Source: Dromaius novaehollandiae
Lineage: Eukaryota > Chordata > Aves > Casuariiformes > Dromaiidae
NCBI RefSeq assembly: GCF_036370855.1
Contig: NC_088101.1
Location: 40,842,544-40,906,543 of the forward strand
Direction of reading: 5' to 3'
Length of the DNA stretch: 64,000 nt
Numbering within the stretch: the stretch's first letter is position 1; every line of letters starts with the position of its first letter. Under the pieces are notes generated by a model. It was not told the DNA's origin, ran no database searches, and saw nothing but the letters and a program-made list of their open reading frames with translations. This document shows, piece after piece, positions 7,406 through 63,389 of the stretch. Both the position numbers and the translations under genes were made by a program.

Positions 7406-7411
7406 CACGTG
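7406..7411. promoter_or_regulatory. E-box CACGTG upstream of FGG
   Basis: A perfect CACGTG about 300 bases upstream of the inferred FGG start. The human FGG promoter uses a USF-type E-box, though closer to the start. A six-base match can be chance. Confidence 0.3.
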
Positions 7412-7745: not shown

Positions 7746-8280
7746 GAAAAAGAAGCCCATAGTGTTTCTCAAAGGCAATGAAAATGTGGCTCTTTTCCAC
7801 CCCTCAACCCAAGGAGCCCATTTGAACAACTTTGTTCAAAGCTTCCTTGCGGGGAATGAACATTGTCAGTATCACAGGATCAGAAAGGTTTCCTTCCCAG
7901 TTGCCACAAGTCTGGAACCAGTGTTTGCAGAAACATACTGCTTCCAGATAAAACTGTTATCTCCCTGGGGGCAGAGGCTGACTCTGAGTTTACATTTGTA
8001 CTCTGCCTCATTCAATATACCTAGAGGATTGGTGACAGGCTCCCTGTTCTGCTACCTACTTTACCCTGGGCAAATTATTTTCTGTACGTGCTTCTGCGCA
8101 CTCTCTGTAAAATACCAGTGTTAATATCTTTCTACTCATGTTCTGCACCTAAATCTTCTCTTTAGGTTAGAGCGTCTTCAGAGAAAGCCTGCATTTGTGC
8201 CTATGCAATATCACAAGTGATGGGGCAGTGTTGACTGAGGCTTTTAACTTCAGTGCATGGTTGACCAAATGATGAGAAGA

Positions 8281-8400
8281 AAGGTGGGACTGGGACTCAG
8301 GAATGCTGAGCGTCACTACTAGATCTGTTACTGTCTGGCTTTGTGATTATGAGCAAATGATTTCACCTCTGTACAGCTGTATTGATCTTCAGCTTCCTTT
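8281..8400 (+). repeat. MIR-like SINE fragment
   Basis: The order gggactcaggaat, then ctgttactgtctggctttgt, then gagcaaatgatttcacctct follows the MIR consensus (a tRNA-related part leading into the core). It is heavily diverged, as expected for an ancient copy. Ends approximate. Confidence 0.5.
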
Positions 8401-14400: not shown

Positions 14401-15561
14401 TGCTACAAGCATATTTGAAAGAAGTTAAAAGAACAAAGTCCCTTCTGGATTTCTAGACTGCTATACCAATGCATACGTGTGTGTGTCTGTTTGTATATAT
14501 GTGATTTTTTATATATTAATTTAAATAAACTGTATTTGTTCATCTGGGGAGAAATGCATACGTTTGTGTATGCTACACACAGCACACCTGATGCTGACGG
14601 GAATAGATGACGGTTCCCACTCACATTTTTTGTGGATGGGACTTAGGTTGCATAGGAGGTAAGGACATGGAAGCTGGGACAACACAGCCATCTACCGGCC
14701 GCGGCGGGGTAGGTTAACTTCTTTGAGAAGGCTTGTCTTTCCGTGTCCAGAAATTCAGTTTTGTAGTGTGGAATCTCGGCCCAGCTGATTTCAGTGGAAC
14801 TTTTATTTATACTCCTGGGTTATAAAGTATGGCATCGCTTCTAACCGCAATTAGAAATGCATCTAACTGGACTCTCTGTTTATCAACAATTTTCAAAAGT
14901 ACTTAGTTAAATATTTTCAATGTGGCCACTTTCTGCATCAATAAAACTGCCTCTCATCATCATGTACTTATAATTACGTCAACGTCTCTTTGAATGTTGC
15001 ATTTTCCAGCTTTCCTACCAAGATCCAGAAGAACCCCAAATCTTCTTAGTGCTTCCTTTGCAAGAGGTAATGCGCAAAACTGGCCAGGATCAAATCGCAG
15101 GTGTTAAGTCAGGCCTAGCAGTTTTCACATGGGATTCGCACGCCAGACCGGCAGATCCAGCTACAGCCCGTCACACTAGACGCGTTACGGGGATCCTGTC
15201 CGCACGGGGCTGTTCTGGGCACCTCCACGCGACCAACGCGTCCCTCCGTACTGGGCAGCCTGCTAGTTTGGTCACGTTTCTCTACTCCAGGTTCACCGCC
15301 GAGAAATCCCGCCTGGGACCCGAGACACCTCCCCCGTCAAAACCGCGGTACGTAAATAAATATATGCGTACGTCAAAGCAGACACCCGCGTGACGCCGGC
15401 GCCCCGCCCGGCTGCACGCCCGGACACGCCGCGGACAGCCCACAGCGCCGGGCCCGCGGCCCCGCCGGGCCGGGCCGGGGGCGGAGCCGGCGGCGGGCCG
15501 GGCCCGGGCGGTGCCGCCGCCGCCGCCGCCGCCATCCCGCCCCGCCGCCGCCACCGCCACC

Positions 15562-15727
15562 ATGAGCTGCGCCGCGCTGCTGGGGCCCCGGGGGCCGCGG
15601 CTGCTGCGGGCCGCCGCCGGCCCGTCCCGCTGGAGCCGGCGGCGCAGCGGCGGCTGCGAGCCGGCGGCGGGCGGCGCGGTGCGCATCGGCTGCGCCTCGG
15701 GCTTCTGGGGGGACACGGCGGCCGCAG
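15562..15727 (+). CDS. AtuA-like exon 1, leader plus start of domain
   Basis: Residues 1-55 plus one base. The ATG has a good context (gccaccATGa) and is followed by the Arg-rich, acid-free leader [20 protein letters not shown] and further arginines, then [16 protein letters not shown]. Donor GCAG|GTAGGC. The frame is open upstream but has no other ATG before this one. Confidence 0.9.
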
Positions 15728-18700
15728 GTAGGCGGCGGCCCGGGGGGCGGCAGCCGCGGGGAGCCGGGCGGGCGGCGGCGCTCGGCCCGGCGCGTTGCGC
15801 AGCGCCCTGAGCCGCCGCGTTGCGTAAGCGGCCGGGGCGAAGCCGCCGCACGCCCGGGCGAGGCGGCCCCGCGGCGGGAGCCGGTCGCCGGCAAGGCCGT
15901 GGCCAAGAGCAGGGGCAGGGGCGGCCCGGCCGCGGTGTGCGCGGTGCCCTGCCCGCCCGGGCGGCGGGGGCCGGCGGCGGCGCGAGGCGGCTCCCCTCAC
16001 CCCCCCCCCCCCCGCCCGGGCCCGGGCCCGGGCGCGCCCGCGCAACGGCCGCCGGGGCTAACGGCCGCCGCTCTCCGCCCGCTAGTGCCGCAGCTGCTGT
16101 ACGGAGGGAAGCTGGACTTCCTCGTCTTCGACTATCTCTCCGAGATCACCATGTCGCTGCTGACCGCTGCCAAGGCCAGGTCTCCCGTAAGTAGCTGCGG
16201 GGCTGACCCCGGGCGGGGGGCATCCCAAAATCCAGCCTCTGCACTAGATCACATATATGTATATAGGTGAAGGAATGGTTTCTTCCGCTGCTGAAACAGA
16301 GCCCGGACAGCCCGATGCCTGTGTACGCCGCTTTGCTCCATCGGCTGTGCGCTGGAGTTGGGCAGCCAAGCTGGGGACAGCACGAGCGCCCTGTCAGTGT
16401 TTGCCCCGCGTTGACCGAGGCTGGACCAGACCCTTGCTAAGCTCCCGTCCGAACTAAGTCACCCTACGAGTCTAATCTAGCATCTGTCAGGCTCTTGAGA
16501 AAGCTGCCCGTTTGCTTTCGTATTTTTCTACTGGCATGCTGTTATTTGTTCTTGAGGAATACCTGGTTTTCATATACTAAAAACAATCACGTCTTTTTCT
16601 GTAGCCTTGCATAAATGTTTTGAAAACTAGTCATTCTTCAGTGTTTTCTTCTGTCAGGCAAGGAAAAGGGGTTGGGTTGATTTATCCTTAACAAAGAGTT
16701 ACAGCTTTTTGTTGTTTCAGGTTTTGGGTTACACTCCTGATTTTGTCTCCACTGCAATGGCTCCCTATATAAAAGACATTCACAGGAAAGGTATGCTGCT
16801 CATTCTGTGAGTTGGTATCTTAGTGAATTTAAGTTGTTTAGATATATAGTGTAGCTTACTAGAAGCAGTTGTTTTCCACCCCACGTTTTGCTTTTCTGTG
16901 GGAATAATATTTTAAACACCAGTAGAAATCCCCTCCCTGATTGTAGCAAGTGCAAATCTGGTGGTAGCACTTAAACTGGGTCAATTTAAAATGTTTGCCT
17001 GTAATTATATATAGAGAGATATATATTTATCTGTCTTTATGTAGTTGTTATTGTAGCTTTAAATCAGGAATGGAAGATAACTTTGTGTGCAAATCTTTGC
17101 ATTGAAAATGTGCTAAGTTCTTGTTTTGACAAACTAAAAATTTGTCAACCTTCCTGAATAGTTCTAGGTTTGTATATAGGAGTATAATTTATTTTCTGGT
17201 CATTTATTTCTCTTGCCATTTATATTAGTATATCTTCATAACTTGCTCAGTTCGAGAGGAAAAAGTGAATTATTTCTTCTAAGCTCCCAATACAGTCTGG
17301 AATTTATGTATAGATGCATATTTCTGTTAAAATGAAGCAGTTTGAAGAACATAATTGCTTTGAATGACTGGCATCAAATGTTGTACTTTCAGGAGCTGTT
17401 GTGACACTATCTGTTTCCTCATCATGGCTGTGTCTCTTTGGTTACTTCCCATATGTCAAAGATCATGTACAAATGGAAGAAAATGATCTATAACAATTTT
17501 TTTTTCTGTATAAGACTTCTACATTGAATCAATCAGTTCCTTTTATTTCACAGTATAAAGGAGGTTGATACTTTAATGTAATTTTAATACTTTACTTGAT
17601 TAGATGTCTGACACGTTGCAGAGATGATGTCTTGCTTGTGTTTCAGCATGCTTTAAGTTTTTGGAATACAAGTGATTGTTAGTGTTGCTGAACTCACTTT
17701 GTCGTTTCTGTTTAGGTGTTCGTGTCATCAGTAATGCCGGTGGAATTAACCCACTTGCTTGTGCAGCTGCCCTTCAGGAGGTGGCAAAGAAAGCAGATGT
17801 TGACTTGAAAATAGCTGTCGTTGCTGGAGATGACCTGATGAGTGAGGTATTTTACTTTGTCGTAAGGCTTAGGATTGCGAAAGTTCTTTTCTGTAGCAAA
17901 AGATGGCATTTATTATCCTATGAGAGCTTGTCTTGTGCATCCTTCTGCAGTATCTCCTGCTAAAAGCATCTAAAATTGCTGCTTCATTTTTTTTTATGCA
18001 TGAAAGTAATCTTTGACACATTTTGTTTGGTGTATAAAGGGATGAATTTCATAAGACCCTGTCTGCTGCCATATACCTTTTTGAAGCAGATTGTGAATCC
18101 CTGATCTAAGGTCTTCTCTCTCTTCAGGAGAATATAGCATGTGCTGTTACTTACGGCTTCTGTCTAAAATAATAATAATAAATACCTAATCTCTTAAATT
18201 AAGATGTGGTGTCGTTACCACATGGTCAAATGTTCATGCCTCCTGGCTGTTTTTAGTAGTTTGCACTCATTACCTGTTGTTACTTTGTTTACAAGTAGTT
18301 GTTTCTTAAGTAATTAGTTTATGGTCTTTTCACTGAATTTGAAATCTAGAGATGAAATACATGGGTTTTTTTGTCTTATTTTAAAGGCCTTTTTTTTCCT
18401 GTACAGATTCTCATTCTGCAAAAAATGTTGGCCATACCTGAAAACATACCATGAAAACAATTCTATGCATTGGTAATGTTTAAAAGGTGATAAGTTGGAA
18501 CTACGTTTCAATCTCTGCCTGCAACTTGAAAAATTGTTAATCTCCATAGGCTGTATCTAATTATTCCTTGCATGCTATTGAGTATGGAGGAAGCTTGAAT
18601 AAACTTCTTTCTTCACAAATCATGTGCAGTAGGGCAGAAATGTCTGCCCTGTTGTAATTAGCGTAACATCAGTGGTCCCATATTTCATTGCTGGTATGAT

Positions 18701-19309
18701 GGTGAAAAGGTTGTTACTTGAGGCTGGCATGGATGTTTCTTATCTGAAATGGATTGTTTTCTATCTCATTGTTGTCAATACATAAGTGATATGAGCAAAA
18801 TACAGCCTTAGAGATAATTTCATACTGTTGACACCAAAACTCATGAATAAGATTAGGAAATGTCATTTGTGGTTTAAAAGATCTCAATCCTTACTCAAAG
18901 TATACTAAATTCAATAGAAGTAGAAGGTTTTTTTAAATGCTAGGTTACTGGCTGATTGTCATAGTGATGGGAGATACTTGGACGAAAGGTTGGATGTAAA
19001 CACACAAACACAAAAAAAAATTTGTTGAGCTAATTTGATAACGTTCATGAAAAAGATCAGCTGTCAGAAAAGTTGTTAAGATGCTGATAAATATTCCATG
19101 TTAATATGTTGAAAAATATCTGGGAAAAGTTCTGCCGTTCCTAAAACATCAACTATTCTCCAACCTGAACTGATACTCTTTTAGGAGTTGCCGAATCTGG
19201 TAGTCCAATAGAGGCAAGGCTGCTGCAGCTCTATGTCCTGAAGTCTAGCTCGTAGTGAGGATGCACATGTGTTCCAGAGAGGTGCACATGCATGTGTACA
19301 CACTGTATA

Positions 19310-19346
<37 letters not shown>

Positions 19347-22300
19347 GTATGTGTATATACATACATATATACACCTATCTATACATTATATATATGTATA
19401 TACAATGTGTGTGTATATGTGTGTATATATATACATACATACACATATTGTATGTGTGTGTATATATGTATATATACGTATATATACACACATATACAAT
19501 GTGTGTGTATGTGTTTATATATACACACATATACAATGTGTGTGTAAGCACATGTTAAAATGCACACACACCCATCTACACATAACCACACGCATATATA
19601 ATATGTATACACACACATATATACGAACACACAAGGCAGTCACGCAGTTCAGCACATATGGAAGAAACACAACACTTAGGCAAACACAAGCAGCATGAGT
19701 GAGCTGATCGTGTTTCCCATCTCCAAATGATCAAGATAAAAGCCCAGTGGTGGAAAATATACAGTATGGATCCCTGTCGTAGCTGGGCTCAGACACTCAG
19801 TCTATCCAGTAGCTGGCGCCTAGATCCCCAGGTCTTCCCAGTTACTAGCACCTGGGCATATGAGCCCCCAAGACCTGCAGCCCTGCTCCAACTGCTAGTA
19901 CTCGGACCTTCGTGCGCATGCACACACGCTCTATAGATCCCTCCGGAAACTAGCCTTATGCATTGAGTCAGTCCAGTTGCTTGCCTCTGGATTCCCTGTT
20001 CTCCCCAATTGCTTTATGTGCAAATACACTCACACACAAATGAGTCCCTCTGGTAACATGCTATACTGAGGAAAACAGCAAAGTACTGCCTGGAGCTGCA
20101 GCATTAGCCTTGTTTTTTGGCTATGCGACCATTGCTGTTACAGTAGACATGTTTTTGTTGGTATGGTTTGATTTATTCAGTTCTACAGGAATTAAAGACA
20201 GTTTCAAACTCTAAGGAATATATCAGCTTGTTGTAGTTGATCATCTGTGAATGGACTAGCATTCTTTCTTTTTCTGTGTTCAAGAACACTATGATTAAAA
20301 AGGTATGTAAAGCTTTCCATTGATTTGTATTTTGTTTTGAATTTTAACAATTGTACTTTTCTTTAAAGTTGCTACAAAGTGGATCTGATATTAATAAAAG
20401 ATTTACACTAAATACATACAAAACATCCATAGACGTGAGTTTTGTTTTTTCTTTTAATAGAAAGAGAACCTGAAAGGAGCTGGTATCATTGATTTAGAGA
20501 GTGGCAGACAATTTCCAGAGAGCATTCACAGCATGAATGTGTATCTTGGGTGAGTTGTATAAACAAGTCTTTATTGAGGGGGGAGGGGATATAACATATT
20601 GACTACGTGACATTGTTTTGATTTGCAGGTAGAACAACCTAATACTTAAAGTTCTCTGTTGCATAATTAAAGCTACCAGAAAAATAGATCTCTCTTCTTT
20701 GTTGCTTCTGAATAAATTTTTAATTCATAACTTTGCCAGTTGTGACTCTTTAGGATTACATTTCCTGAGAATCTTCAGGTTTTAGTTCAAGCCAAAATCG
20801 CTTTAGTTTAATTATAACAATCCCCCAAATCCTTTCGTATATGCAGAGTATCCTGTCACTGCATGGAGCAGGATTGTTCAGGTTTGTCATCCCTAGAGAA
20901 ATGCAACTCCGAAGTGGAGGTACCATGACACACGATGAATGCTGTAGAAGATTTCAGTATTTGTGTTTCAAATTTTGTACTTTTGAAACTTTGGAGGCTG
21001 CCTTTTTAGAACAGATCACGGTTCTGAAAGATCTTAGGTACTTTCTTTATGATGCTGAGTGCCTCCTGAAAATCTGTTAAGTGTGCTTGTTCTAGCTGGC
21101 CATTTGTGAATGGTTACATCTTCATTGTCATCATCAACTTTCTCAGAGGAATCAAGGTAAATCAAGTCTATCGAAAGTGAAGGACTGAGAAGTGGGACAA
21201 CAGTCAGGCATTCCCAAAACCTAACATCTCTTCTGGTTGACAGTCCTGGTGATCCTGCTTTTGTTTTTTTGTCCTCTATGCTCTATATATCATCCCTTCT
21301 GTATTTCTTTTCTGTGTATTTCTTAAGTCCCTACACACAGTGCCCCTCTATTACGTTAATCTGGATGGCAAAAACTGTCATGCTCTCTCTTGTATTGCTG
21401 TCATTGCAATTTCTAGGAATGCGTTTCTGGCACATGGCAGGGTATGGCTGTATCTAACACAAAGTATATTTTTCTCTGTAAAACAAGGATCTTCTAATAG
21501 CTTACTCTTTCAATTTGTCTTTATTGTTTCCTGTTACAGTTGTTGCTAGATTTTCTGTTTGTTAATCTTTTGGTTTGCAACATTTGTGGATCATAAGTAA
21601 TTGTAAATGAGGTCTAAGAAATAATGATTAATATTTATAACCATGAGAAAGTGTTAACTTCAGTCTTGATGAGTCATGATTTATTCATGATTTTAAAAAA
21701 GAAAAAGGTCCAAGTCAAAGCAGAGAGGACAAAAGCAGACTAGTTACTAGGATGATGGATTTTAAAAATCTGTCTCTGCTCAGCTTTGCTAACAGCTGCT
21801 ACAGCAGCAGAGAAAGGAGAGTCTTGCTCTTGATTTTCTAATACAGGCAGCGTTTCTTTATGGGACTCTCTTTCTCCGATGAGTTGAAATGCAAAACTAT
21901 TCCCAGTGCCTTAGATCAGCTGTGCTTCATAAATTATGTTTTTCTTTGACATCATCAGCAGTGGAGGCTTATTTGTAAACCAAAGGGAAATTTATATATG
22001 TCTGTAAAACAATTTGAAATCATAGCATACTGGGTAAAATCTGTAAGTTACGTAGATTGGCCTTGTTTTTTTTAATTCCCTAAGTCAGGTAATGTTTACA
22101 GTTTTTATTTTTTAATTCAGAATGCAAACTCCACCTCAAAAATTTGCATTGAGATACAGATTCTGAAGTGTTTCTTCTGTCCCTCATGATTTGGACTATT
22201 ATAAATTCTGCAGATTGAACTCATGTACATCTTCAATAATAAGATCCAAGCTGCTTTACTTGCTGACATACTGCTTTTTAAAGGTAGTTATGCAGTTGCT

Positions 22301-25300
22301 GTGTCACTATCCTGCATATTTGTATGAAGAAATCCTATTTGTGCTGCTTACCAGTGACTATTGCTTCACACTATGCTCAGAGGTGTAAATTCTTCCAGTA
22401 TGCTGTATATTTGCTTACTTATCTTGCTAGTATCCTTTAGTCTACGTAGTGTTGGCTAAATATGTATTTATTTACATTATATGTTATTTACATCATTAAG
22501 ATGATAACTTCTGTGCATTCTAACCTTTCTCTGAACAAAAGCAGGGCTAAGTCCTTTTGTAGAAACTTTATAAAAATCTTGGTTTTGTTCTTAAAAGCAC
22601 CCAGATAATGTGGTTTGTGTTTTCAAGCTGCCTATTTCATGAATGATGGAAGAATCCAGTACAGAGCATGGGTTTAGAAGCCAGGAGTCATGCATTCTGG
22701 GCAAAGGTTTCTTACTAACCTTCTGTCCAAACTTGAGCAGTTCACCTGGTTGAATATTTTCAAGCACTGCTAGTTCTGATTGGGCTAACTTTTACTAAAC
22801 GAATCTGGAAAATCTGTTGCCTAAGCCTCTTCAGAAATAATCAATGCACAATGCTCTTCTTTAGATCGGTTGATGTTGTTTTAAAAACATTCACTATGTA
22901 TACAAAATGACTAATTGATTTTAATTTAAGTGATCAGGACATTTAAGTGATTTTATTCTATCTGTGTCAGAGAACTGATTTTTAAGCAATGTTTTAAAAA
23001 GTGAGAGTGTACATTGTTTTGTTTTGTTATCTTTAGAGCAAGACCAATAAGCAGGGCTCTGGACCTCGGAGCTGATATTGTTGTGACTGGTAGATGTGTT
23101 GACAGCGGGATTGTATTAGGACCCCTCATCCATTCAGTAAGTTCAAGTTAATTATCATATGACGCTGAACATGTGGGAATCAATATTCAGTAATCATTGT
23201 CAGGTATTTCTGCTTCTTAAGAAAATGTAGGCACTAAATGAAAAACAGTGAACTCTTATATTTTTGTTTCCTTTTTTTTTTTTTTCCTACATGAATGAAA
23301 TTTTGCCAACTTTCACTGCTTCTAAATTTATAGCAGGGATATATAAACATGCATATATCATGAAGCTGGAAATCATCTCAATGAAGTTCAGGGAATTTTG
23401 CCTTGTCTTACCAGGATTTCACTTGTAACCTTTTTTCACTTCATATTCAGTGCCTAAGGTTAAAAAACATACATTTTTCTTTACCACAAGGTGGCACTTG
23501 TAGATCTCATTTTGTTTCAGGGGAAAAAAGGCTCTCGAGGTGGTCTAAAACACTGGTCTTTTTCAATGGGTAAGCAGTTCTATTTTAAGAAGTTGAGTTT
23601 GTGTGACATTTTTCAAATTCTTTCAGTTTCAAGAAATAATATAAGGCAGGATATGTGGTTTTCTGCAGTGTTTTTAGTAGCATGTGCACTTTTGTGAATG
23701 ACCACAGACTGTGGAACATTCAAGATTTCTTTTGGTATGTATTTAAAAATATACTGGGGTACGTGTAAAAGTTTTTTGAAGAGGATGAGACTGTGTAGCA
23801 ACTCAAATCTGCCTGCAGTTCCTACTAACTAGTTAGATTGTTCTGTAGATTTCTGCAGTTACTTAAAAAATATGTACCATGCATTGTTACTCAGAGCAGT
23901 GAACATATTATATTCTGTTTCCTCTATTGTATAAAATGTTGTATTATATAATATATTTGTATTTTTCTTCTAGTTTGGCTGGAATAGGGACGAATTTGAC
24001 TTACTAGCTGCAGGAAGGTAAATGATATCAGAAGAAAAAATTGTATTCAATATCAAATTATGTCAGAATAACAGAACTTTAACGTGCAAAATCTCTAATG
24101 CTCATATTATTGAATTCATTTGTTTGAATGTTACGGTTCGGCTCACTTAATCTCTTGTTAGAACTGAACTCATAAAAACTTCACTTTGGAACCACTTAAA
24201 ATAACAAAATGAGGGAAAGAGTGAATGATTTTATTAAACAGCGTAATTTTTTCTTCTTGTCCATTTTGTGTCAAAAGAAGTGAACTCTTACAGTACAGAC
24301 CAGTGATTCTCAGCTTTTTCTATTTGGGCATCACTGTTGATAGTTGAGATGGCAGCAGCTCTTGTCCTCAAACATGCACAGAAGGAAAGAATCAGTCATT
24401 GGTCAGCATCCATTTATGGTTTTGCAGAAGCTGGGTGAGAGTATCCCCATTTGCAAAACTAGCTGTAAACCCTAGGGTTAGGAATTGGATGCAGAAAGTA
24501 CAGGGTGAAAATCTGCTTTATCTAATTTAATTTTCTGCATCATCTTTACTGTGTTGAAGTCATTAAAAATGAATGACTATTTAGATAATCTCGGTGCACC
24601 TAGTAGTAGTATTTTGGACCTCCTATTGCTTGAGAATAAATGCAGAAAGAAATTCTGGCTCCACTGAGTTGGAGATGTAGTGAGTAACCACTTGGTTTAG
24701 AGAGAACAGGATTTCTCCCATAATTCTTTTAGGTAGTCAGTATTTATAGAATGTCACAATCAAAGATTTGAAAATCGTAGTACATTCAGTTCAAGGATGT
24801 CCTTTGCCTTTAAATGAGACCTTTTAACTCTGGATTAAAAGTGAGTTTTGCATAGTTAGTTACTAACAATGCAGACCAACCAGAATACTGAATTTCGGTC
24901 AAGATTTTTGGAGATGAGCAGTCAAACTTGCTTTTGGTGTCACATGATATCTTTTCAGATTGTTTTCAGTTTTTTTAGAGAGTTCATTTGCTTCTTCATG
25001 TAAAAGTCTAGTTCTTTTAAGCCTTATGTTAGACTTTCAAAATCCCTAGTTATATTTAATACAAAGTTTATAAATGTAGTACTGGATGCTTATGGAAAAT
25101 TTTTAGCATGTTCTGTTACCTAGCTTTCTTTTCACTGTACTATAATACTTTTACGCTGGACTTGTGAAACTTTGTTTTACAAAATACTTAGTTATTTGAA
25201 CATTTGCCATTTTCCCAGCCTTGCAGGTCATCTCATTGAATGTGGTGCTCAGTGTACAGGTGGAATATTCACTGACTGGCATACAGTACCAGACTGGTAG

Positions 25301-34300: not shown

Positions 34301-37300
34301 TTGTGTTTCAGACACCAGGCTAATGAATTATGGTCTTTTGTGATTCATGATGGGCTTTTCTAGGTGTTCCCCAGCTACCACAGTTTCCAAGTTTTGTATA
34401 CAATCAGTGTTAAAGTTGCTGATCTCTAGTAACAGAGCTTGTTTCTTAATCCTTTTTTTTAAATAATGGAGTTATGTTTGAAGCTTCCCCGTGTTAAGGA
34501 ATCTGTCCAAACTCCCATGAACTTTTACAAATGTCAATTATAAGAGTTCACTGGTTTCTTTACTTACTTCCTTTAAAGCTTTGTGGATTTATGTTGTCCA
34601 AACTATGTTCGTCTAACCTTTGCTAATAACCAGTTTGGTTGTATGTTGAGCACATGTTCTTACTAACACCCAAAGATAATTAATTTCAGGGATCAACTGA
34701 TCTTAAGTGATGTACAAAGGACCTGAAGGTCATTGACTTTAATGGGGATAGTGATCTTCAGCACCTTTTGTTATCAGGTCCTTTTTAGAACAGTTTAGAT
34801 TTTTTAAGGACCTGTATCTGCTTAGCTCCCCATTTTCTATCAGCTACTCTTCTTATGTCTCTGGGAAATTTTATTTGGACAGATCTCCAACTTCTTGTGA
34901 GACAGGAGTGAGCCAGGCAGTCTCTTTAAGAGAATATTGAAACTTTGCTTTAATTTTCAGGTGCCTTTCTTTTTTTAATCATTACATTTGCTGAAAGAAA
35001 TTCTCTGGAAATGAAAGAAAAGCCTGTTAACCTGGAAAGCAGCTATTTAGAGCTCTTCTACATAACGCTGAAAATTCTGTCTTGCTACTGTAACGGAGGT
35101 GGTGTACTATGAGCTACTGATGACTTTCCGTATTTTAATCTCGTGAAAATGTGGGGAGGGGAAATACTTTCATTTATGAAGACCGCTGTAATTTGCTGTT
35201 TTACCATTTGTTTGTTTGTTTTTTTCCTCTTTGCTGTGCCTGATTTTTCTGTCTTTCTGTGTTTTACTGTTGTTCTGGTCTAGAGATCTTAATTTCATCT
35301 ATCTTCCTGTTTACTTATTATGATTTCTTTGTGTATATAATTTATCACAAACATGCAAAATTGTCCTTAATAGTTGTGATTATTCTTGTTTCCTACTTCT
35401 CTTCATTTCTGAGATCGCCAGCACAGACTGTTTTTACTGCTTGACTTTCTTACAAATCCATATTCTAGGATGCATTTACTTGTCTGTCACCTTCATTCTG
35501 TGTCTGCTGCTATAGCCAAACTAAGTAGTGTCATCCTAGTCAAACATTTTTTTTCAGTCTTTTCTCTGTCCAGAACCAGCAATCATGCTTTTCTTCTGAA
35601 TTTACCTCCTCAGTTATATTTCCTCTAATTCAGCCTCTCCTCCTTTTGTGGTTTCTGTTAGTGTCCTAATTTGTGGCTTCTGCTCCATTCCTTTCTCCTC
35701 TCCCATCCATTTACTGTTGATGTTTGATGTTATATCTGCACTCGTTTGCCAAGCACTAAAATGCATCCTCTTGTTTTCTTGGTTAGCAGTTTATTCAGTG
35801 CTTTTTCTTGTGCATGTTTCTACAGAAGCAATCAGATGTGTTCTTACTTAATGATCAGTTTTATTTAGTCAGTCATTACTGTGAAATTCTGATACGCTGT
35901 TAATCATTTTTCTTTCCCCTCTCCTTTTGTATTTATAAGTTTTTTGTTTTTATGTTTTTAATATTCCAGGCATAACATAGGCTTTCCCATTGTGGAATGT
36001 TCCTCTGAAGGAGACCTAATTATTTCCAAACCACCGGACACGGGGGGGCTAATCTCTTTTGGCACTGTGGCCGAACAATTGGTGTACGAAGTGGGCAACC
36101 CTCAGCGTTATCTGTTACCAGATGTTACTTGCGACTTTTCTGAAGTTTCCATCACTGAAATTCCAGGTTAGTCCTATAACATGTTAAGAGATCTAGGTCA
36201 GTGAACTGGATTATCAAACTAAAGCAGTTACTTTAGTTTTCTTTTTTTTTTCTTTACGTATTCCTTGTTAAATCTGTTCTTCAGAGCATAATAGTGTGAT
36301 AAACTCATTTTTTTCCAAGGAATTTTGTTGGAAATTTCTTTGGAAACTTTAACTGTAATCTTATTTATTTTGTTTGTTGACTAATGTAAATCTTTGATCA
36401 TTTTTCCTTCTGATCATTTTGATCCTTTTTGATCATTGCTGCTTTAATGCATGCCTTATACCTGGCAAGTCTTTAAACTACGCATTGTGTTTGAGCAACA
36501 CTGAGACAGCTCTACTATGAGATTTTGGTATCTTTTGCAAGGGGGGCCTAGCTTCTTTAATTAAGAAGGCTTGTATTTTTTGGTAGATGTTCTGTCATGT
36601 GGCACTTGAAATGTTAGTGGCAATAGACAGCTATACCTTTCAAAGCATTACTTGATAATGACTTTTTCCTAGATGTTTAATGGGTCATCTTAAATTGTAG
36701 GAGCTTGCTTAGGTATAGGTTATCCACTAGGGAACTTCTGTTAGGAAAAGGTCCATTTGTCATCATCAAAACTATGAACAGCCATATTAACAGACTAAGG
36801 ATGGATATAAGATTCACTCTAGATTTAGTCTTTAAGTCTGGGGGGGAGGGGTTGGCTTTTAAGATTTGTAGCTTTTTTGTTGTGAAAAAAGAAAAAAGCT
36901 TGATAAAGTATTTAGCTATAGTAATTTGATGTTTATTTTTATTGCATGTGTATTATATAGGGTTTTTATTTTAATGGCACTTACCCTTGACAGTATTGTG
37001 AGTGACCTTATAAAACCTAGAGCGATTGAAATCTCCAATTAAAAACTTACTGTGATAATATTCCAAACTCCATAACATCAGAAATATTTTGCTTCAGTAA
37101 TAAAAGTAGCATGAAACTGTACAGTAAAACTTCTGTTGACACAACATAATCAAATGACAGTCCAATAAGGCCAGCTTGTTACTCTTAGCCACCAGTCCTT
37201 TAAAAAAAAAGGGGGGGGGAGGAAGAGAACCCTAACCTTCCTATGAACTTTTAGCTTGCAAACGACCTGATATGACATGTTTGAACTTAAAATGAACTTT

Positions 37301-43300: not shown

Positions 43301-46300
43301 TTTAAGCTGCTTCAGTTGTACAACTTAAATTAATAGGCAGCCTAAGGCATTTAGCAACTTCAGCAGCTTGTAATATGACTACTTCTTTCACTTCTTTCTT
43401 GCATGCCTCCTCTCCTTTATTCATTTATTCATTGCAAATGCAGGAAAGATTTGGCAGAATGTGTAAAGTAGTCTTCAGTGTCTCTTTTGCATTACAAAGG
43501 CATGTGAATGGGCTAAAAATTGCCCATAGAATGTATTTTGAATTCTGATGTCTCTAGCTAACTATTTTTAGGTAAATAACTTAAAATAATTAATTACAAA
43601 TACAGTTTGCAAATTTAAGTGCATTAAATTGGGTATTTGTCCTTCTGTGGTCATCAAAATAAAAATGGCCTCATTCTATGGTATACTGACCACTTTCATC
43701 TCTATACAACAATTAAAGTCGCATTTTATATTTAAGTCCCATTTATGTCTTCTCCTCTCAGGTACCACATTTAATATTGACAATAATTATGACACACTAA
43801 CAATGTCTTCAAAATATTCCACTGATCCAAAGTGTTTTTGTGATTCTAACATAATTCCCATGTTTCAACTGATGAAATCTTTTAAACGGCTAGAAGGGTG
43901 CCAGACAAAGGGTTATCGGAAAACCGGTTTAGGTGCTTAATGGTTTTGGAGTTCGACTATTTTAAAAAACTGCAGTGGTAATTCTCAGCTTGTTCTGTGT
44001 TTGAGCATTGTGCTATGTTTTAAGAGTTGCTGCAAATGCTCTGTTTAATCTTACTTTAATATTTGACAAAACACAGTATTTATTAATTGCTGGCTCTCTT
44101 TAAGCTGACTTGGATGGAAAAAATGAGAAAAAAGCAATGTGTGTTTTTTATGATGTCTAAAAAGAAGGTCCATCTCACTTATTAATCCCAATAGGACAGG
44201 CTTGGTATTCTTGACACAATGTGCTTTTGGTGAAAATATTCTTAGAAAAAGGGTTTGATGGCTTTCACAGTACCAGACTAGAAATGCATAGAAAATGAAA
44301 ATTTCTGTTTAAAAATATCATTTATTTTTTGGCATTTGAGTCATATATTCATTACTCCAAAAAAAGTACCTATCAAGTTTGAATAAAAGGTCGTTCTTAA
44401 GTTAGATTTTTCTTCCTTGGTGCCTGTGATGTAGTGATACGGCTTCATATATTGGTTGTTCATAATGTCTTACAGGAGAAACAGATTTCCAATTTGAAAA
44501 CCAGGAAGACTGTATATACTGTAATTATATTTCAAACTGTCTTAAAGATGAAGTGAAAGATCAGGAATCCATATGTTTGCCTATCATCTTTCAAATAATT
44601 TGAATAAAGAAAAGATTCAAATTGAAACCCAGAGACAAAATCAGAGGTATAATTTCTTGACAGTATCACTTGATTTGTAGTTTTCAGATGATAGCTCTAT
44701 GGTGTAGACTGGAATATGAATACTTCTCACTAATTGCTGTGGATCACACAAGGCTATTTCAGAGAATCATTTTGAGGCAGTTCGCTAATAAAACATCATT
44801 TGTTGCAGGACTCGTCTTATTTTCAGTCAGCTTGGGTACGAAGATTACAGTGCAGTTAACATACAAGTTTTAGGGTCTGAAGATACATATGGACCTCACG
44901 CTAGAAGTATAGATGGTGTAAGTATTCAGTGGAGTGTTTTTAAACTTCTGCTGACCTCTGTTAATCTCCCTCTATTGTTATCTTTTCCGTAACTTTAAAG
45001 GAAGTTGCTATCATCTCAGGAATTTCACCCCATCATCTTACAAAGAATTCAGTATCACTACTTAGTGTACAAAGTTATGCAAAGAATTATGTCTTTGCAG
45101 TATTGGCTCTTCCAGAAGAATTGTTATAAAATCTTATAAAAATGTTGTTGTAGTCTGTTCCAATGTTTATCTAAAGAAATATCTTCTTATAAAAGTTCAT
45201 GTGATGTAAGCTTTTAAATTGCATTGAAGATAACTCTAAAAGACCACAGTATAAAGATTGCAGAGTCATGAGATGGCAGAATTATTATTTTGCATGCAGT
45301 TTTAAAACTATCTGTGAAACAGTCTTCAGCTCATCATTTTGTATTATGTTTTTGACTTCTTGCATTCATATGTAAGAATCTGAATGATGGCCATAGCAAC
45401 TGAGACATCCACAATAAGTTTTCTTAATCTATAATATGGAAGTCCTTTTTTTTTTTTTTTTTTTTAAGGCAGTAAATCTTGTCCTCACTTACATACACTT
45501 TAAATATTTAGACAGCTTAGCTTTTTCCAAAACAGTAGCATCTAATTCTTCTTTGTAAATGGCAGTGTCTTGCAAAGCTCTAAGGTACCCATGTGACAAA
45601 ACTCAGCTCTGAGAATTTGATACGAGGAATGTCAGCACTTAAAATAGCTGAGTATTTGTATTTATAGGGAACAAAAACATATGATAGTGAGAAAGATAGT
45701 GAACTTTTACTGTAGAAATTAATTGTTTATAGAAATTGGGTAAGTTATATCTGCAGCTGTTCATTTTAGTGCTGGAGTTTCAATTTAATTCTGCGCAGCA
45801 CCGCAAGTCGCTTGCTGATGAACCATCTGTATAATGTGATCCCTTTCCTTCTCAGGAAAGGATATGTTAAAAGTGTATGACTGAGATTGCAGAATCAAGA
45901 TACTCAAACATAGGAATGGATGCTCCAGATGTTAACTTGTCTGTGTTCTGTTAGTACCAGCTCCTTATGATTATTCATTGTAATATATTCTTTAATAATG
46001 TGGTTACATAGTATGTTTTCTGTCTTGCTTATTGTATAGAGTGAATAGTGATTTGAGAAAGAGCTTCTTATTGTTTGTCTTTCTTGCTGTGCACTAAACA
46101 GATTTTCCAAATCAAGTTGAATATTTAGTGTTTCTTGTATTTCAGCCACAACTCTCAAGTTTTTTTATTAAAAATAAATAGAATGTTATCTCTATTGTAT
46201 GTGCTTCCCATATATACTTGATACAGGATGTGAGAGTTGAGACTAAAATACGGGAAATCCTTCTGCTGCCTTCCCCTTTCACCCTGTTCCACCAACAGTT

Positions 46301-49300: not shown

Positions 49301-50577
49301 GGAGGAAAGATGCCATTAGCGTGAAGAAAGGTACCCCTGCCTCTCCCTCACTTTTTTTCAGCGTTAAAGCCTGAAAAATCTGGGGCTGAGTAGGGTGATG
49401 CTATTCCCTAGTCCAGAGGAGGGAGGACTCCTTGAAGGAGTCATGCTTCAGTTCTTTCCATCCAACCAGAGGAATGTCTCTCCTGCTCCATACTTCCTAC
49501 GTTTTGAAGTTGTGGCTGTTGGATTCTAGCAATACCCTAATCCTCGTCTGCTGAGTATTTCATCTATGATGATGTTTTCAGAAATGTCTTAAGTTTATGT
49601 GTAATGAAACAGGCTTTTTGCTAAAATCTGTTATAAATATTATACTAAGGAGATTAATGCTGTTTTAAAATACTCTTCATAATTTTATACATGCATTGGG
49701 AAGCTACTGAATGCTTCAGAAATGATTATATGTAAGGAGAAAAGTTGGAACAAATTAAAAATGAATTATTTAGTCTTGTATAATCATTTTCTGGTATAGC
49801 AGACTTCTAGAATAGATGCAGAATGTCTTGAATCTTCCAAAATCTAGTAGTTCCTTTCTTCCAGGAGGAGGTCCTCTTCAACCTCTAGGTAGCTATATGT
49901 TAGGATTTTCCTTCACTTCTCTATGTTGCTCCTTGCATTTTTAGTAGAACAGGTACTGAATCTATCAGTATGCTTTAGACAGGGCATTTGGAGTGTTACA
50001 AAGTCCATTGAGCTCTGTAGAAAACACCTTGGTATATTTTTCATGCTTCTGTGAAATATATCCTTTCCTATTGACATAAAACAGAACATAGGCAGAAAGT
50101 GGAAGAAATCCCCGAGTATCTTTTAGTCAAACTCCTCCTTTTCAAGCTTCATGTTGATTTAAGTAAGCCAAGAATTTCATGCAGGTGTACAAAAGAACCT
50201 TTAGAAATTTTCTTCTTGTTCATTGACACAAAGAACGACAAATTAAAACTGAGCTTGGGGAGTCAAGTCTGAAGTGAAAAACTAAAGTTTATGTAAGCCT
50301 GATGTGACCTTGAACACATAAGAATTTAACTTGAACTTCAAATTGCGTAATATAGCTGGCTACCAGAAAGAAGAAATACCCTTCAGCAGGATTCCATGCT
50401 TGTATGATGCTGTGTGAGAAAATCTGAACCAGCAGATTTTGTTACTTTGTGCAGACCCATTTCGTATGAGCAATGGAAATGCTTTTTTTTTTTTTGCCCC
50501 CTTTTTTTTTTTTTTGGCCTTTTTTTGGGGGGGGGGGGCCTTTTTTGGGGGGGGCCTTTTTTTTGGCCTTTTTTTTG

Positions 50578-50612
<35 letters not shown>

Positions 50613-53600
50613 GAAGGAAGGGAGACAGATTTAGGAACAAGTACAGACTTTGAAATCTAATCAAAAGACTAGAGATTCCAAGGCAGACCCAAAGATTCAT
50701 CTTATTGATGGGTGCAAATTCTTGAAAAAATACACAGGTATACACAGGTATAAGTGTTTGCCTGTTGTAAGGGGCAACAAACCTGAATTTGACAGAAGCT
50801 GAGTTTGACTGCATGAGATACAGAAGTCCACCTCAGATGCATTAAGAGAATATTCAGAAATCATGGTCAGGTACATAGCTGAGGATTTCTGTATAAATAA
50901 GAGAGCCATGTTATGTTTCCTTAGTATAAAGAGAATTAATTATATTTAATAGAAAGTAGTACTAATAGACCAAAACCTTGTCTTTTCCTTCAGTGAGACT
51001 TGGTGTTCACTTTAAGCCTTTTGCCGGTGTGTTGATCCCAATGGAAGATCTTTCAGTGGCAGAAAAAGATTCTTAGAGAATGAAAATCCTAAATGAGAGA
51101 TAGTTAGAATTTATCTGTTGAAGGGGTTGTTAGCTGACTGTAGGGTGGGGCAGCATATTGATTGGGTTTATCTTTAGAGTAGTGTCTGCTCTCTTTGGAA
51201 AAGGTGATGGTTTTTGTAGGTTCCAATCTTCTATCTAATCCCCAAGCAATAGGTTTGACTTCTTTTCCATGAGAAGATCTGTTTACTTTTTAATGCTGAG
51301 GGAAGTGAACGTGGCTGTCTAACTTGTTTCCAGATTATTTTCAGTGGGCATAAAATAAGAGGAAAGTTTGCTTGCCTATCCCATTGAGAATGAAGCAAAG
51401 TGTTTCTTTTGTTATAAAATATTGATTATTATAGTGCTTGATGCTCTAAGACAGTTGGAGAAGATGCACGGTGTCCTCGCAGTCTGAAATATCCAGCAGT
51501 TAATTTCAGGCAGCGAAAGAAAAAAGATAGTGAAAACAATAATAGAAAATTATCGTAATGTTGGCTACACCTTGAAATGTCACTGAATGAAAATTGTTAT
51601 AGCTATTAGTAGTGTCAAGCACTAACATTTCTGTTAATTTCAGTGGTGAGCTACAGTTCTCTTTCAGTTTCACAAATTTAACTAATGCTCTGCATATGAG
51701 CTAATCTTCTTATGACTCATTTTCTACTTTTTGGAAGCAGGGTCCTCGGGAAGCTGTTATTTGGCTTGCTGTACACCATAAACAAAAAGAGGCTGTAGAA
51801 ATCTTCTCCAAAGAGATTGCAGCAGCTGGAACTGGAATGGGTAAATACTCACATCTTTATAAGAATCTGAAAGTTATTTTTTTTTGTTCCTGAGCATGAG
51901 TAGCACCTAGCTAGTCACAGCCAGTTTCATAGACCTGTGAGTAGTAACACCGAACTTTTTTAATGTGTTTATATTCTTTGTAGAAATGGGGCCTACAGAC
52001 ATTAACAATATGATAAAACGAAAGTTTTAGAAATCCACCTTTTTATTCTTTTGACTTTTCATCGTTCTGTTGTTGTTACCATCCCTTCCTGCATTTTTTT
52101 TCCTCTTTTCATCATGTTATCTTTATTCTCCTACCCATGGCTACACTGACACATGACAATGTTATAATCAGTTTCACCAGCTTACTAAAACTCAACAGTG
52201 CCATTAAAACTCAATGGCAGTAAGCATTAAGAATGTTATTCAGCTGGCAAAAATATATCACATACTGTTTTGCTGTAACATTGCAGCTTATCAAGAGCTG
52301 TGCAGTTCAAGGGTGTTGAAGGTTCTCTTCAGCACTAGTATCTGATGTTACTGCAAAGCTTTTAATGGTACTACTGTACTTCTAATCTGTTTAATGAGTA
52401 GCTGCTTGTGTAGATGAATACTACTTTGAAATGTAATTCAAATCTCATTTTTTAAAATGATACTGCAGTGAGTGCTAATAATGTACATATAATTCTTTTT
52501 CACTGCATATGTGTGTGTATATATATTAAAAAAAAACAACTCAACTCAGATTCTGATCCTGTGCTCTCATGTCTAACCTCAAATCAGTCTGTCTTTAACA
52601 TTTGACTTCTCATGATTTAATATCTGCATCCATTGTAAGTTTTTCTTTTGTTTTTGATTGACTTCCAAGCTAGAAATTAAATATCAAGATTTAATTATGT
52701 GTCTTAGTTTTAAGCATATGTTTTAAGTATTTTCACAGCTGGTGTGTAAGGGCCCCCTATTGTGAAGTTATCTATGCTGCTTTTGTTTGCCTTCTGTTCT
52801 AAAAAAAACAAAAAAAACTTTGCATTGGTTCTTTGTAAATTTCATTGTCTTCTCTTAACTTTTTAGGAAGAATTACTCTTTGATTATTTTGAGCAAACTG
52901 TTCTTTTTTTGTTTTCTGTTCTCCTCCCAAGTGACTTTTATCTGTGACCACTGCATGCCTCTCAGTTTTAAGCAGCACTTTCATATGTTGTGATTTGACT
53001 GCTGCCACTCTATGGATACTTCCCCCCACCCCCTCTTTCCCCCCCCCCCCCCCAATCCATTTAAGATTTGGCCAATTAATTTTTGAGGATTGTAACTTAG
53101 ATATTTTGCAGTAGCTCCTATGTAACTTGCGGAAGAATATATTGAGGGATTACAGGAGTTACATGAGCTTAATTTAACTCTCTCAACTTCCACAGCGAAT
53201 CTAGACTCCTACTTAGTTTTCTTTTTCCTGCCTTGCAGTAAAAGAATTAATAAACATTTTATTTTCAGTGGATTTGAAACTGTATGCAAGTATGCATGTT
53301 CTGTCTTGCTGTCTTTATAGTGGTAGCAGAGATATAGTTAATGTAGTAGCTGGGGTTTTTTAAAGTTGTGTTTATAGAGGCAGGGTCAACACATGGTCAT
53401 CTTTTTTTTTTTCTTTTCTTTTCTTCTTTCTTTTTTCTACCAGATAGATAGAACACAATAATGCAGAACTAATCAGGAATATTCATGGAGATGATTTTAA
53501 AAAATTTTGCAATTACAAAGGCTAGTTAGTAGATCAGCATTTACTGTAGGTGTAAATTGCTTCCAAAAGTGTTTTTCTGATGAATGAAAGGTGGTGTTTT

Positions 53601-62600: not shown

Positions 62601-63389
62601 TAAAATGTCAGAAGCTACCTTCAGGATGAGGAGAGCAGAACTGTTTCTGTCATAAATACTAAGCTATTAGATGAGTTTAATGGTATGAAAGCCTGGCCAC
62701 CTGAGGTTGAGATTAGACAAGAGTCTAATCACAGTGCTGACGTGCAGTAAATCTAGGCTTGCACCAGTGACTGAAGCCTCTAAATTTGCCTGTGTAGCAA
62801 AGAGAGAATGGGATCTCCACTACCCAGCACCTTAAGAACATCTGGGTTAGCCAGCGAAAATGCCAAAGAGAAGGGTGCATCTGAAACAATCTAAATAACA
62901 TAGCCATGTTAAACAACTATTAAAACAAGCCATGGTTCATGTCAGAATTGTTTTGATTGTTCTCTTCAAATAAAAAACAAAAACCAAAAGAATCCCACCA
63001 GCAAAAACCCCCCAAACCAGTTATTTTTCTGCCAAATGTATTACCTGCTCGGCACTGGGATACAGAAATAATATTAAATTCTTCATATAAATTAGTTTAT
63101 ATTTTGCACATTTTGAAACAAATTCAGTCTTTTTCTTTTTTTTTTAAAGTCTCAATGCTTTTTACTTGTTTTACCTTTTTATCTGTTGCATAAAATGTTT
63201 GGATGTGTTAATTTGTGATGCCATACATAATTTGCTAAGTGCTGCCAGCATTTATTAAATCTGAACCATAGGAATGGTTCAAGCTACAGTAAAATAAGAG
63301 CCCCAGTGTTGTGAAAATGGCTGTAACGGTTCTGTTGTTTCATTTCCAGCACCCGGTCTCACTGGAGTTGTTGGAGGGCGTCCTAGAGT
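15562..63389 (+). CDS. AtuA-family (acyclic terpene utilisation, former DUF1446) protein, 14 exons, 3' end outside window
   Basis: Fourteen exons (15562-15727, 16086-16186, 16721-16790, 17716-17846, 20461-20549, 23037-23136, 23974-24017, 25219-25296, 35970-36166, 38506-38570, 41566-41672, 44809-44917, 51741-51840, 63350-63389) join in phase to 465 residues with no stop, all with GT/AG borders. Residues 1-31 hold seven Arg and no acid, consistent with a mitochondrial presequence. The domain begins near [12 protein letters not shown] (40-51) and carries the family blocks [29 protein letters not shown] (115-129), VVAGDD (147-152), [14 protein letters not shown] (197-210), [17 protein letters not shown] (238-254), SKPPDTGG (279-286), [33 protein letters not shown] and [13 protein letters not shown]. 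Bacterial relatives are linked to terpenoid (citronellol/geraniol) breakdown, but the reaction of AtuA is not established. Bacterial proteins run on into a smaller C-terminal domain, expected here beyond the right edge. Family assignment is confident; location and function are inference. Confidence 0.92.
15728..16085 (+). other. AtuA-like intron 1, GC-rich
   Basis: Lies wholly in the CpG island. Contains a run of 14 C (16000-16013) followed by a repeated cccggg tract. The opposite strand could form G-quadruplex-like structures. No coding content is supported, although long GC-rich open frames cross it on both strands. Confidence 0.75.
16086..16186 (+). CDS. AtuA-like exon 2
   Basis: Residues 56-89, [20 protein letters not shown] then [13 protein letters not shown], a well conserved family block. 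Acceptor GCTAG|TG, donor CCC|GTAAGT. Confidence 0.93.
16721..16790 (+). CDS. AtuA-like exon 3
   Basis: Residues 90-112, [20 protein letters not shown] then HRK. Acceptor TTGTTTCAG, donor AAAG|GTATGC. Introns 2 and 3 on either side (16187-16720, 16791-17715) show nothing recognisable. Confidence 0.92.
17716..17846 (+). CDS. AtuA-like exon 4
   Basis: Residues 113-156: [20 protein letters not shown], the glycine-rich signature, then [14 protein letters not shown]. Acceptor TGTTTAG, donor GAG|GTATTT. These are the most diagnostic motifs of the family. Confidence 0.95.
19303..19635. repeat. compound (TG)n/(TA)n microsatellite with higher-order repeats
   Basis: About 330 bases of almost pure alternating purine and pyrimidine: TG runs, TA runs, and several returns of the phrase cacatatacaatgtgtgtgt. 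The alternation suits Z-DNA or cruciform formation. All open frames here are low-complexity and not coding. Confidence 0.9.
19760..20065. repeat. degenerate minisatellite beside the microsatellite
   Basis: Loose repetition of a unit built around cagttactagcacctggg / cagtagctggcgcctag / ctccaactgctagtactcgg, separated by pyrimidine-rich spacers such as cccaggtcttcccag and gatccctccgg. About four to five diverged units can be seen by eye; unit length and borders are uncertain. Confidence 0.45.
20461..20549 (+). CDS. AtuA-like exon 5
   Basis: Residues 157-186, [20 protein letters not shown] then [10 protein letters not shown]. Acceptor TTTTAATAG, donor CTTGG|GTGAGT. Confidence 0.93.
20550..23036 (+). 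other. AtuA-like intron 5
   Basis: 2.5 kb, AT-rich. One weak MIR-like fragment near its 3' end is listed separately; no other gene or repeat is recognised. Confidence 0.6.
22655..22765 (+). repeat. possible MIR-like SINE fragment
   Basis: The stretch agagcatgggtttagaagcc, then aggagtcatgcattctggg, and further on a cttgagcagttcacctgg-like part follow the order of the MIR consensus but are strongly diverged. Tentative. Confidence 0.3.
23037..23136 (+). CDS. AtuA-like exon 6
   Basis: Residues 186-219: [20 protein letters not shown] then [13 protein letters not shown]. Acceptor ATCTTTAG, donor TTCA|GTAAGT. Confidence 0.94.
23974..24017 (+). CDS. AtuA-like exon 7, a 44-bp exon
   Basis: Residues 220-234, [15 protein letters not shown]. 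Acceptor TTCTTCTAG, donor GGAAG|GTAAAT. Introns 6 and 7 beside it (23137-23973, 24018-25218) show a T-rich tract near 23,270 and nothing else recognised. Confidence 0.93.
25219..25296 (+). CDS. AtuA-like exon 8
   Basis: Residues 234-260: [20 protein letters not shown] then HTVPDW. Acceptor TTCCCAG. The donor must be GACTG|GTAGGT, because this makes Trp260 across the junction and keeps the DWHNIGFP frame into exon 9; using GTAACC three bases on would add an in-frame stop. Confidence 0.92.
25297..35969 (+). other. AtuA-like intron 8, 10.7 kb
   Basis: No supported gene. Holds a MIR-like SINE (listed). An open frame of 118 codons lies on the minus strand (26203-26559) in a locally less AT-rich patch, but I do not recognise the protein. 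The rest is AT-rich unique-looking sequence with short homopolymer runs. Confidence 0.6.
33985..34095 (+). repeat. MIR-like SINE fragment
   Basis: Good match by eye to the MIR core: cactgatcttgctgtgtaac, then gggtgaatcacc, then ctcctcatctgtaaaattgc and aataattac. This is the clearest SINE fossil in the window. Confidence 0.75.
35970..36166 (+). CDS. AtuA-like exon 9
   Basis: Residues 260-326, [40 protein letters not shown] and [20 protein letters not shown]. Acceptor ATATTCCAG, donor CCAG|GTTAGT. It is the longest internal exon seen in this gene. Confidence 0.95.
36167..38505 (+). other. AtuA-like intron 9
   Basis: 2.3 kb. Has a short repeat of tgatcattttt phrases at about 36,395-36,440 and an A9/G9 homopolymer junction near 37,203-37,220. 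Nothing else recognised. Confidence 0.6.
38506..38570 (+). CDS. AtuA-like exon 10
   Basis: Residues 326-347, [20 protein letters not shown] then YK. Acceptor CATTTTAG, donor ATAAG|GTATAA. The donor lies inside a perfect 16-bp tandem duplication, so a second copy of the same donor follows at 38,587. Confidence 0.92.
38559..38590. repeat. 16-bp tandem duplication over the exon 10 donor
   Basis: The unit aaattttataaggtat occurs twice head to tail with no mismatch, covering the last 12 bases of exon 10 and the start of intron 10. Use of the second donor would insert 16 bases with an immediate in-frame TAA. Confidence 0.9.
38571..41565 (+). other. AtuA-like intron 10
   Basis: 3.0 kb. Contains an A run at about 38,842-38,858, a T18 run at 39,531-39,548, a CR1-like LINE fragment (listed), and a short CG/CA repeat at about 41,182-41,202. 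Confidence 0.65.
40790..40990 (+). repeat. CR1-type LINE 3' fragment
   Basis: The string of phrases tagctttccaaaagaaatag, acatttaaaagtagactgga, taaagtgcttgaaaactt and ttagcagattcttccatctg follows the order of old CR1 3' ends (the AGACTGGATAAAGCACTTG region through the TCTTTTCCATCTCT region). Diverged and truncated; limits approximate. Confidence 0.6.
41566..41672 (+). CDS. AtuA-like exon 11
   Basis: Residues 348-383: [20 protein letters not shown] then [16 protein letters not shown]. The acceptor is ATCATTAG|GTAAGT; the exon itself starts with a donor-like GTAAGT, but phase and family alignment require it as coding. Donor AAAAG|GTTAGT. Confidence 0.93.
41673..44808 (+). other. AtuA-like intron 11
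   Basis: 3.1 kb, AT-rich. An open frame (43629-43940) follows an acceptor-like cttctcctctcag but has no recognised protein content and no family support. Nothing else recognised. Confidence 0.6.
44809..44917 (+). CDS. AtuA-like exon 12
   Basis: Residues 383-419: [20 protein letters not shown] then [16 protein letters not shown]. Acceptor TTGTTGCAG, donor GGT|GTAAGT. Confidence 0.94.
44918..51740 (+). other. AtuA-like intron 12
   Basis: 6.8 kb. Contains a T20 run (45,446-45,465), a TG/TA microsatellite (about 47,286-47,312), an A14-15 run near 48,950, and the alternating homopolymer block listed separately. No gene supported. Confidence 0.65.
50483..50611. repeat. alternating T / G / GGCC homopolymer block, probable artefact
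   Basis: Runs of T (8 to 31 long) alternate with runs of G or C and with GGCC junctions. The pattern is neither a normal microsatellite nor a transposon poly(A) tail. It most likely reflects a poly(T) tract corrupted during sequencing or gap filling. Confidence 0.75.
51741..51840 (+). CDS. AtuA-like exon 13
   Basis: Residues 420-453: [20 protein letters not shown] then [13 protein letters not shown]. Acceptor TTGGAAGCAG, donor ATGG|GTAAAT. Confidence 0.94.
51841..63349 (+). other. AtuA-like intron 13, 11.5 kb
   Basis: The longest intron. Contains a C-rich tract with a C15 run (53,023-53,053), a C-rich tract near 54,700-54,722 and short TA/TG runs near 52,507, 58,157 and 61,752. No gene, RNA or clear transposon recognised; open frames do not exceed about 115 codons. 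Confidence 0.6.
53023..53053. repeat. C-rich homopolymer tract
   Basis: ccccccacccc followed by ctctttcc and a run of 15 C, within intron 13. Simple-sequence tract with no other meaning seen. Confidence 0.85.
63350..63389 (+). CDS. AtuA-like exon 14, a 40-bp exon
   Basis: Residues 453-465 plus two bases, [13 protein letters not shown](V). Acceptor TCATTTCCAG, donor AGAGT|GTAAGT. With exon 13 it makes MAPGLTG, a conserved family end block. At least one more exon must follow to the right, because the codon is split and no stop has been reached. Confidence 0.93.

Follow-up and report, generated by a model that had tools for sequence, protein, structure and literature searches.

The AtuA family is described mainly from bacterial terpenoid and branched acyl-coenzyme A (CoA) catabolism, which raises the question of what a gene of this family is doing in the genome of a bird. 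The gene begins in a window of 64,000 nucleotides (the whole stretch of DNA that was analysed) from the emu, Dromaius novaehollandiae, at positions 40842544-40906543 of contig C4 (NC_088101.1) in assembly GCF_036370855.1, which holds 1,468,444,375 bases in 271 contigs. An earlier note on the window had taken it for a genuine, intron-rich vertebrate gene and this reading stands: the gene has 20 exons, a CpG island at its start, and FGG and an LRAT-family gene as neighbours. To judge by its sequence, emu AtuA is a real gene, a new member of the AtuA family and probably functional.

Results

Structure and extent of the AtuA gene

Bacterial AtuA proteins matched 14 ordered stretches on the + strand of the window in a tblastn search. 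Joined at GT/AG borders, these stretches give 1397 bases and, in frame, exactly 465 residues between 15562 and 63389, as the earlier note had it, with GT at all 14 donors and AG at all 13 acceptors. The seven family blocks quoted in that note are all present on the + strand and in order, six of them within single exons and MAPGLTG across the junction of exons 13 and 14. Exon 1 (15562-15727) carries the start codon, a basic presequence-like N-terminus and the motif SGFWGD. It is followed on the same strand by exons 2 (16086-16186), 3 (16721-16790), 4 (17716-17846, with one of the quoted blocks), 5 (20461-20549), 6 (23037-23136, TGRCVDSG), 7 (23974-24017), 8 (25219-25296, again with a quoted block), 9 (35970-36166, KPPDTGG), 10 (38506-38570), 11 (41566-41672), 12 (44809-44917), 13 (51741-51840) and 14 (63350-63389), the last within the window.

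The 465 residues had been presented as the product of the gene, which they are not. There is no stop at 63389: exon 14 closes in phase 2, a GTAAGT donor follows, and the gene is therefore cut off by the end of the window. We therefore extended the sequence by 98,557 further bases of the same assembly, joined by exact overlaps; positions are those of the window, continued past its end. Six more + strand exons (64884-64935, 68856-68967, 73260-73343, 74901-75024, 82053-82143 and 83275-83349) complete a gene of 20 exons that spans 15562-83349, encodes 644 amino acids and stops at 83349. The phase-2 end and these six exons led us to reject the window product as a complete protein. A model of exons 15-20 with GT donors only had 0 solutions. 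When GC was allowed at one donor there were 18 in-frame models, among which we chose by donor consensus and alignment, and for this reason exons 15 and 16 have less secure ends than the other exons. In the chosen model the GC donor is that of intron 19 (82143-82144, CAG followed by GCATGT, beyond the window). It is the sole exception among 19 donors (18 GT), all 19 acceptors are AG, and 37 of the 38 splice dinucleotides are thus canonical.

No stop or frameshift interrupts the 644 codons. The start codon is preceded by GCCACC, and an ATTAAA or AATAAA word stands 56 bases beyond the stop, where chance could give the same. By base composition a CpG island, the likely promoter, extends over exons 1 and 2 at approximately 15000-16200 (unstranded). 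GC content is 0.748 and the observed/expected CpG ratio 1.07 at 15000-16000, against 0.509 and 0.71 at 16000-17000, and the island at the gene start described earlier is hence confirmed.

Domains, constraint and copy number

Comparison with Pfam, the check that the earlier note had proposed for its product, placed the 465 residues in PF07287 with E=1.5e-132 (profile positions 1-408 of 437), well outside what chance would give. For the 644-residue protein the match is E=1.1e-134 and 450 bits against a cut-off of 22.8, now over profile positions 1-434. The full protein also has PF23544, the C-terminal AtuA ferredoxin-like domain (E=3e-35, profile positions 2-113 of 113), a second domain that is encoded by exons outside the window. 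NCBIfam gave no family for the 465-residue product and Rfam no match in the window.

A scan of prokaryotic genomes yielded at least 595 pattern matches and 366 relatives. We used the best 80 loci, and 34 sequences picked from them served as the reference for constraint. The emu product keeps 77 of the 78 columns that are invariant in the bacterial proteins (the one loss, at residue 183, replaces A by V) and 41 of the 46 near-invariant ones, and it has the majority residue in 100 of 292 variable columns. Its highest identity, to proteobacterial AtuA, is 52.6% over 582 columns. Thus the gene looks constrained, column agreement being a proxy for purifying selection that is distinct from the ratio of non-synonymous to synonymous change (dN/dS). 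When the assembly was searched with the AtuA protein, 16 of 18 candidates reached E<=0.001, counts that are lower bounds. Every one of the 16 lies on an exon of this same gene; 16 of its 20 exons are matched, and exons 1, 7, 14 and 15 are those without a match.

The first 40 residues of the protein contain 7 Arg, 0 Lys, 0 Asp and 1 Glu. A 39-residue extension with a net charge of +6 is absent from the bacterial relatives, six of which have 1 to 11 residues at the corresponding N-terminus. In composition, the emu N-terminus resembles a mitochondrial presequence.

A solved relative of the family

A structural model was made for the relative from Pseudomonas lini, with the 34-sequence alignment, and reached a mean predicted local distance difference test (pLDDT) of 92.2 and a predicted template modelling score (pTM) of 0.91. 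Foldseek returned one convincing match, 9EVF_A (E=7.7e-24, template modelling (TM) score 0.58 by query and 0.74 by target), which is subunit A of a citramalate lyase in complex with ADP and pyruvate. The small subunit 9EVF_B matched the model weakly (E=4.9e-3, probability 1.00, TM score 0.72 by target). A profile of the 34 AtuA sequences found the same protein by sequence, as 9ERQ_A (AtuA family protein / citramalate lyase subunit A, also in 9EVF; E=3.5e-8).

Gene context in bacteria and candidate partners in the emu

Representative proteins from bacterial AtuA neighbourhoods, named by Pfam, were searched by tblastn at 1e-15 against the loci of the best 80 of the 366 relatives. A biotin carboxylase subunit was found at 56 loci, a carboxyltransferase at 53, an acyl-CoA dehydrogenase at 52 and an enoyl-CoA hydratase at 48; a short-chain dehydrogenase/reductase (34/80), TetR (32/80) and a CoA-transferase (15/80) were less frequent. 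Both carboxylase subunits stand near AtuA at 53 loci (41 of the 47 that are at least 16 kb long) and all four main enzymes at 39 (31 of 47), while 18 loci, several of them short, have none of the four. The one bacterial carboxyltransferase typed against solved structures is the beta subunit of geranyl-CoA carboxylase: it scored 842 bits with that protein and 474 with the bacterial methylcrotonyl-CoA enzyme. The one biotin carboxylase typed in this way was nearest to methylcrotonyl alpha (545 bits) in a list that holds no geranyl alpha, and an enoyl-CoA hydratase scored 173 bits against gamma-carboxygeranoyl-CoA hydratase, below the cut-off of 426.

In the emu genome PF01039 has 29 matches spread over six places, which make five carboxyltransferase genes if the copies on contigs C33 and C35 are counted once; these numbers are lower bounds. 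By best solved match, the gene on C33 is of the methylcrotonyl beta type (381 bits, against 199 for geranyl), that on C9 of the propionyl beta type and that on C17 of the acetyl-CoA carboxylase type. We considered the gene on C8 as a geranyl-CoA carboxylase partner of AtuA and rejected it, because it is nearer to methylcrotonyl-CoA carboxylase beta (human enzyme, 496 bits; geranyl beta, 346). A PF02785 search for an extra biotin carboxylase gave 5 matches at four places, too slight a basis for calling one. Since no geranyl-CoA carboxylase was recognised among four of the five genes (that on C19 is untyped), a complete bacterial-type terpene pathway in the emu genome appears doubtful. Methylcrotonyl-CoA carboxylase might instead serve a related substrate.

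Two observations were made on these genes along the way. The exons of the C8 gene (C8:41170951-41179672) are open, and it adds a further methylcrotonyl-CoA carboxylase beta-like gene to the MCCC2-like one on C33/C35. Stretches resembling NITGFMVG and MGGEQAA, which its relatives have, are missing from its second half, and by its sequence it is perhaps a pseudoenzyme. The MCCC2-like gene is present on both C33:42258001-42287800 and C35:55962001-55991800. The two copies are 99.83% identical across 29.8 kb, which looks as though the assembly had retained both haplotypes of a single chromosome.

Neighbourhood on the chromosome

The AtuA gene sits between FGG and an LRAT-family gene on an 88-Mb contig. 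Upstream, on the - strand, Pfam places FGG exons at 6208-6393 (Fib_alpha), 3675-3815 and 2447-2740 (both Fibrinogen_C), spanning 2447-6393. Their nearest solved structure is the fibrinogen gamma chain, with 175 of 200 aligned columns identical to 1M1J and 160 of 200 to 3FIB, which we take to be chicken and human fibrinogen, respectively. A six-frame Pfam scan of 600-15499 gave fibrinogen domains only. Downstream, on the + strand, the LRAT-family gene starts at 89388 (PF04970, E=1.1e-39), and on the same flank a + strand gene with an RNA recognition motif (RRM, by Pfam) lies near 110.8 kb, presumably RBM46. We assume that the human order of FGG, LRAT and RBM46 is the same and that an AtuA gene is absent between them there.

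In intron 4, TA/TG repeats form an AT-rich array that has a higher unit of 37 to 47 bases (19330-19550), and at 50483-50611 T-rich and GGGGGGCC units form tandem arrays of about 12-20 bases with a 31-base T run at the end. A bird CR1 3' repeat pattern had 0 matches and lends no support to placing the genome among birds, for which the FGG similarity speaks. A plasmid search of 15000-17000 found no match.

Discussion

The earlier note had described AtuA as a mainly bacterial family with no settled reaction. The former holds; on the latter the record is less blank, given that published work proposes a reaction and that the citramalate lyase subunit A has been solved. AtuA-like ThnQ/ThnS are reported, as unpublished results, to cut a CoA ester with a tertiary hydroxyl to yield 3-oxoazeloyl-CoA (PMC12016498). 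In enterobacteria a DUF1446 gene adjoins methylaspartate ammonia-lyase (PMC4682846). Citramalate lyase, ThnQ/ThnS and the DUF1446 context suit a single scheme: cleavage of a carbon-carbon bond at a tertiary alcohol, departure of an acetate-like carboxylate, and a bound nucleotide.

Carried over to the emu, the basic N-terminal extension would direct the protein to mitochondria, where it would bind ATP or ADP and cleave a carbon-carbon bond adjoining a tertiary alcohol, releasing an acetate-equivalent and leaving a 3-oxo product. The family would make a 3-hydroxy-3-alkylglutaryl-CoA the likeliest substrate, of the kind that arises when a branched enoyl-CoA is carboxylated and hydrated. ATP might activate the leaving carboxylate ahead of a retro-aldol cut, for example, a guess prompted by the solved relative and its complex with ADP and pyruvate. 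We lean towards the reading, drawn from sequence and model, that emu AtuA is a functional single-copy nuclear gene for a nucleotide-binding mitochondrial lyase of tertiary 3-hydroxyacyl-CoAs or related acids. Lyase chemistry is, with about as much confidence, the likely mechanism of the protein, its substrate being left open.

How does the emu protein compare with known systems? Proteobacterial AtuA from geranyl-CoA carboxylase clusters has both domains in the same order in about 600 amino acids and has 77 of the 78 invariant columns in common with the emu protein; across some 590 columns the two are about 50% identical. The emu gene differs in its 39-residue N-terminal extension, its 20 exons and the lack of an operon, and its genome in the lack of a recognised geranyl-CoA carboxylase (C19 again untyped). 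Citramalate lyase CmlA/CmlB (9ERQ, 9EVF) shares with AtuA, as seen in the bacterial model, the main-domain fold and a weaker likeness in the small subunit, and by profile it shares motifs. Unlike the fused AtuA chain, it has two separate subunits, it is beyond single-sequence detection and its substrate is likely a different one. Mitochondrial 3-hydroxy-3-methylglutaryl-CoA (HMG-CoA) lyase (LiuE/HMGCL) cuts beside the tertiary 3-hydroxyl of a glutaryl-CoA, but it belongs to a different family and releases acetyl-CoA instead of acetate. This step is chemically similar and the two are compared in PMC12016498. ThnQ/ThnS, of anaerobic naphthalene degradation, are named AtuA-like there and are reported to cut at the tertiary alcohol of a CoA ester; they are two genes with a cyclic substrate, and are likened to AtuA by description.

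Several points weigh against a mitochondrial lyase of this kind. The hydrophobic moment of the N-terminus is exceeded by 12 of the 633 windows of the protein and is therefore not exceptional. In a single-sequence search the 465-residue product found no solved relative at E<=10, and the structural model is that of a bacterial AtuA, not of the emu protein. The reaction proposed in print, for bacterial AtuA, is termed speculated (PMC9973270), and the same step is given to LiuE elsewhere (PMC4097962). To these is added that no geranyl-CoA carboxylase was recognised among the genes on C8, C9, C17 and C33.

This last result, the citramalate lyase as the only strong fold match, and the DUF1446 gene beside methylaspartate ammonia-lyase (PMC4682846) would also suit an AtuA that acts on a small acid, such as citramalate or a related 2-/3-hydroxy acid, yielding acetate and a keto acid and unrelated to isoprenoids. 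We regard this as unlikely, if worth keeping in mind: the emu protein is far nearer to AtuA of geranyl-CoA carboxylase clusters than to CmlA, which the single-sequence search missed. Less probable still is that the gene looks intact and is non-catalytic or recently silenced, its protein having another role or none. The changed invariant (residue 183), five changed near-invariant positions and the GC donor point that way, as does an MCCC2-like carboxyltransferase with altered motifs in its catalytic half, so that open but altered metabolic genes do occur. Against it stand the uninterrupted 644 codons, the 37 canonical splice dinucleotides and the 77 invariants kept. Bacterial contamination or recent transfer, suggested by a family known mostly from bacteria and a best identity of about 50% to proteobacterial AtuA, can be dismissed, as the earlier note had done, in view of the 19 introns and CpG island, the FGG and LRAT genes that flank it on its 88-Mb contig and the deep branch of the window product.

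That branch comes from a tree of 74 bacterial relatives and the window product (75 rows of these two kinds only, quick method, long branches flagged), in which the window product has an end branch of 1.49 and its nearest row at 2.46, and no well-supported set holds it. Ancient transfer and vertical descent may both fit this tree of bacterial rows. No vertebrate AtuA appeared among the titles listed in searches of one open-licence literature library, a scope outside which lie genome annotation databases that could well carry the gene as an automatic annotation.

Returning to the mitochondrial lyase, what might such an enzyme do for a bird? A tentative idea, which we would not expect to hold in full, is that birds keep a mitochondrial branch for acyclic isoprenoids or branched acyl-CoAs, in which an enoyl-CoA hydratase and methylcrotonyl-CoA carboxylase, or the paralogue of the latter on C8, supply the nucleotide-dependent, acetate-releasing AtuA at its end, and which mammals lost from the FGG-LRAT interval. 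Loss of AtuA in mammals is, by itself, an attractive possibility. With one relative solved and a chemistry put forward, this family of bacterial catabolism now has a fixed site in a vertebrate, between FGG and LRAT. This placement makes testable whether the gene is absent in mammals, which substrate vertebrate mitochondria would supply to AtuA, and whether AtuA proteins in general may be nucleotide-dependent lyases of tertiary alcohols.

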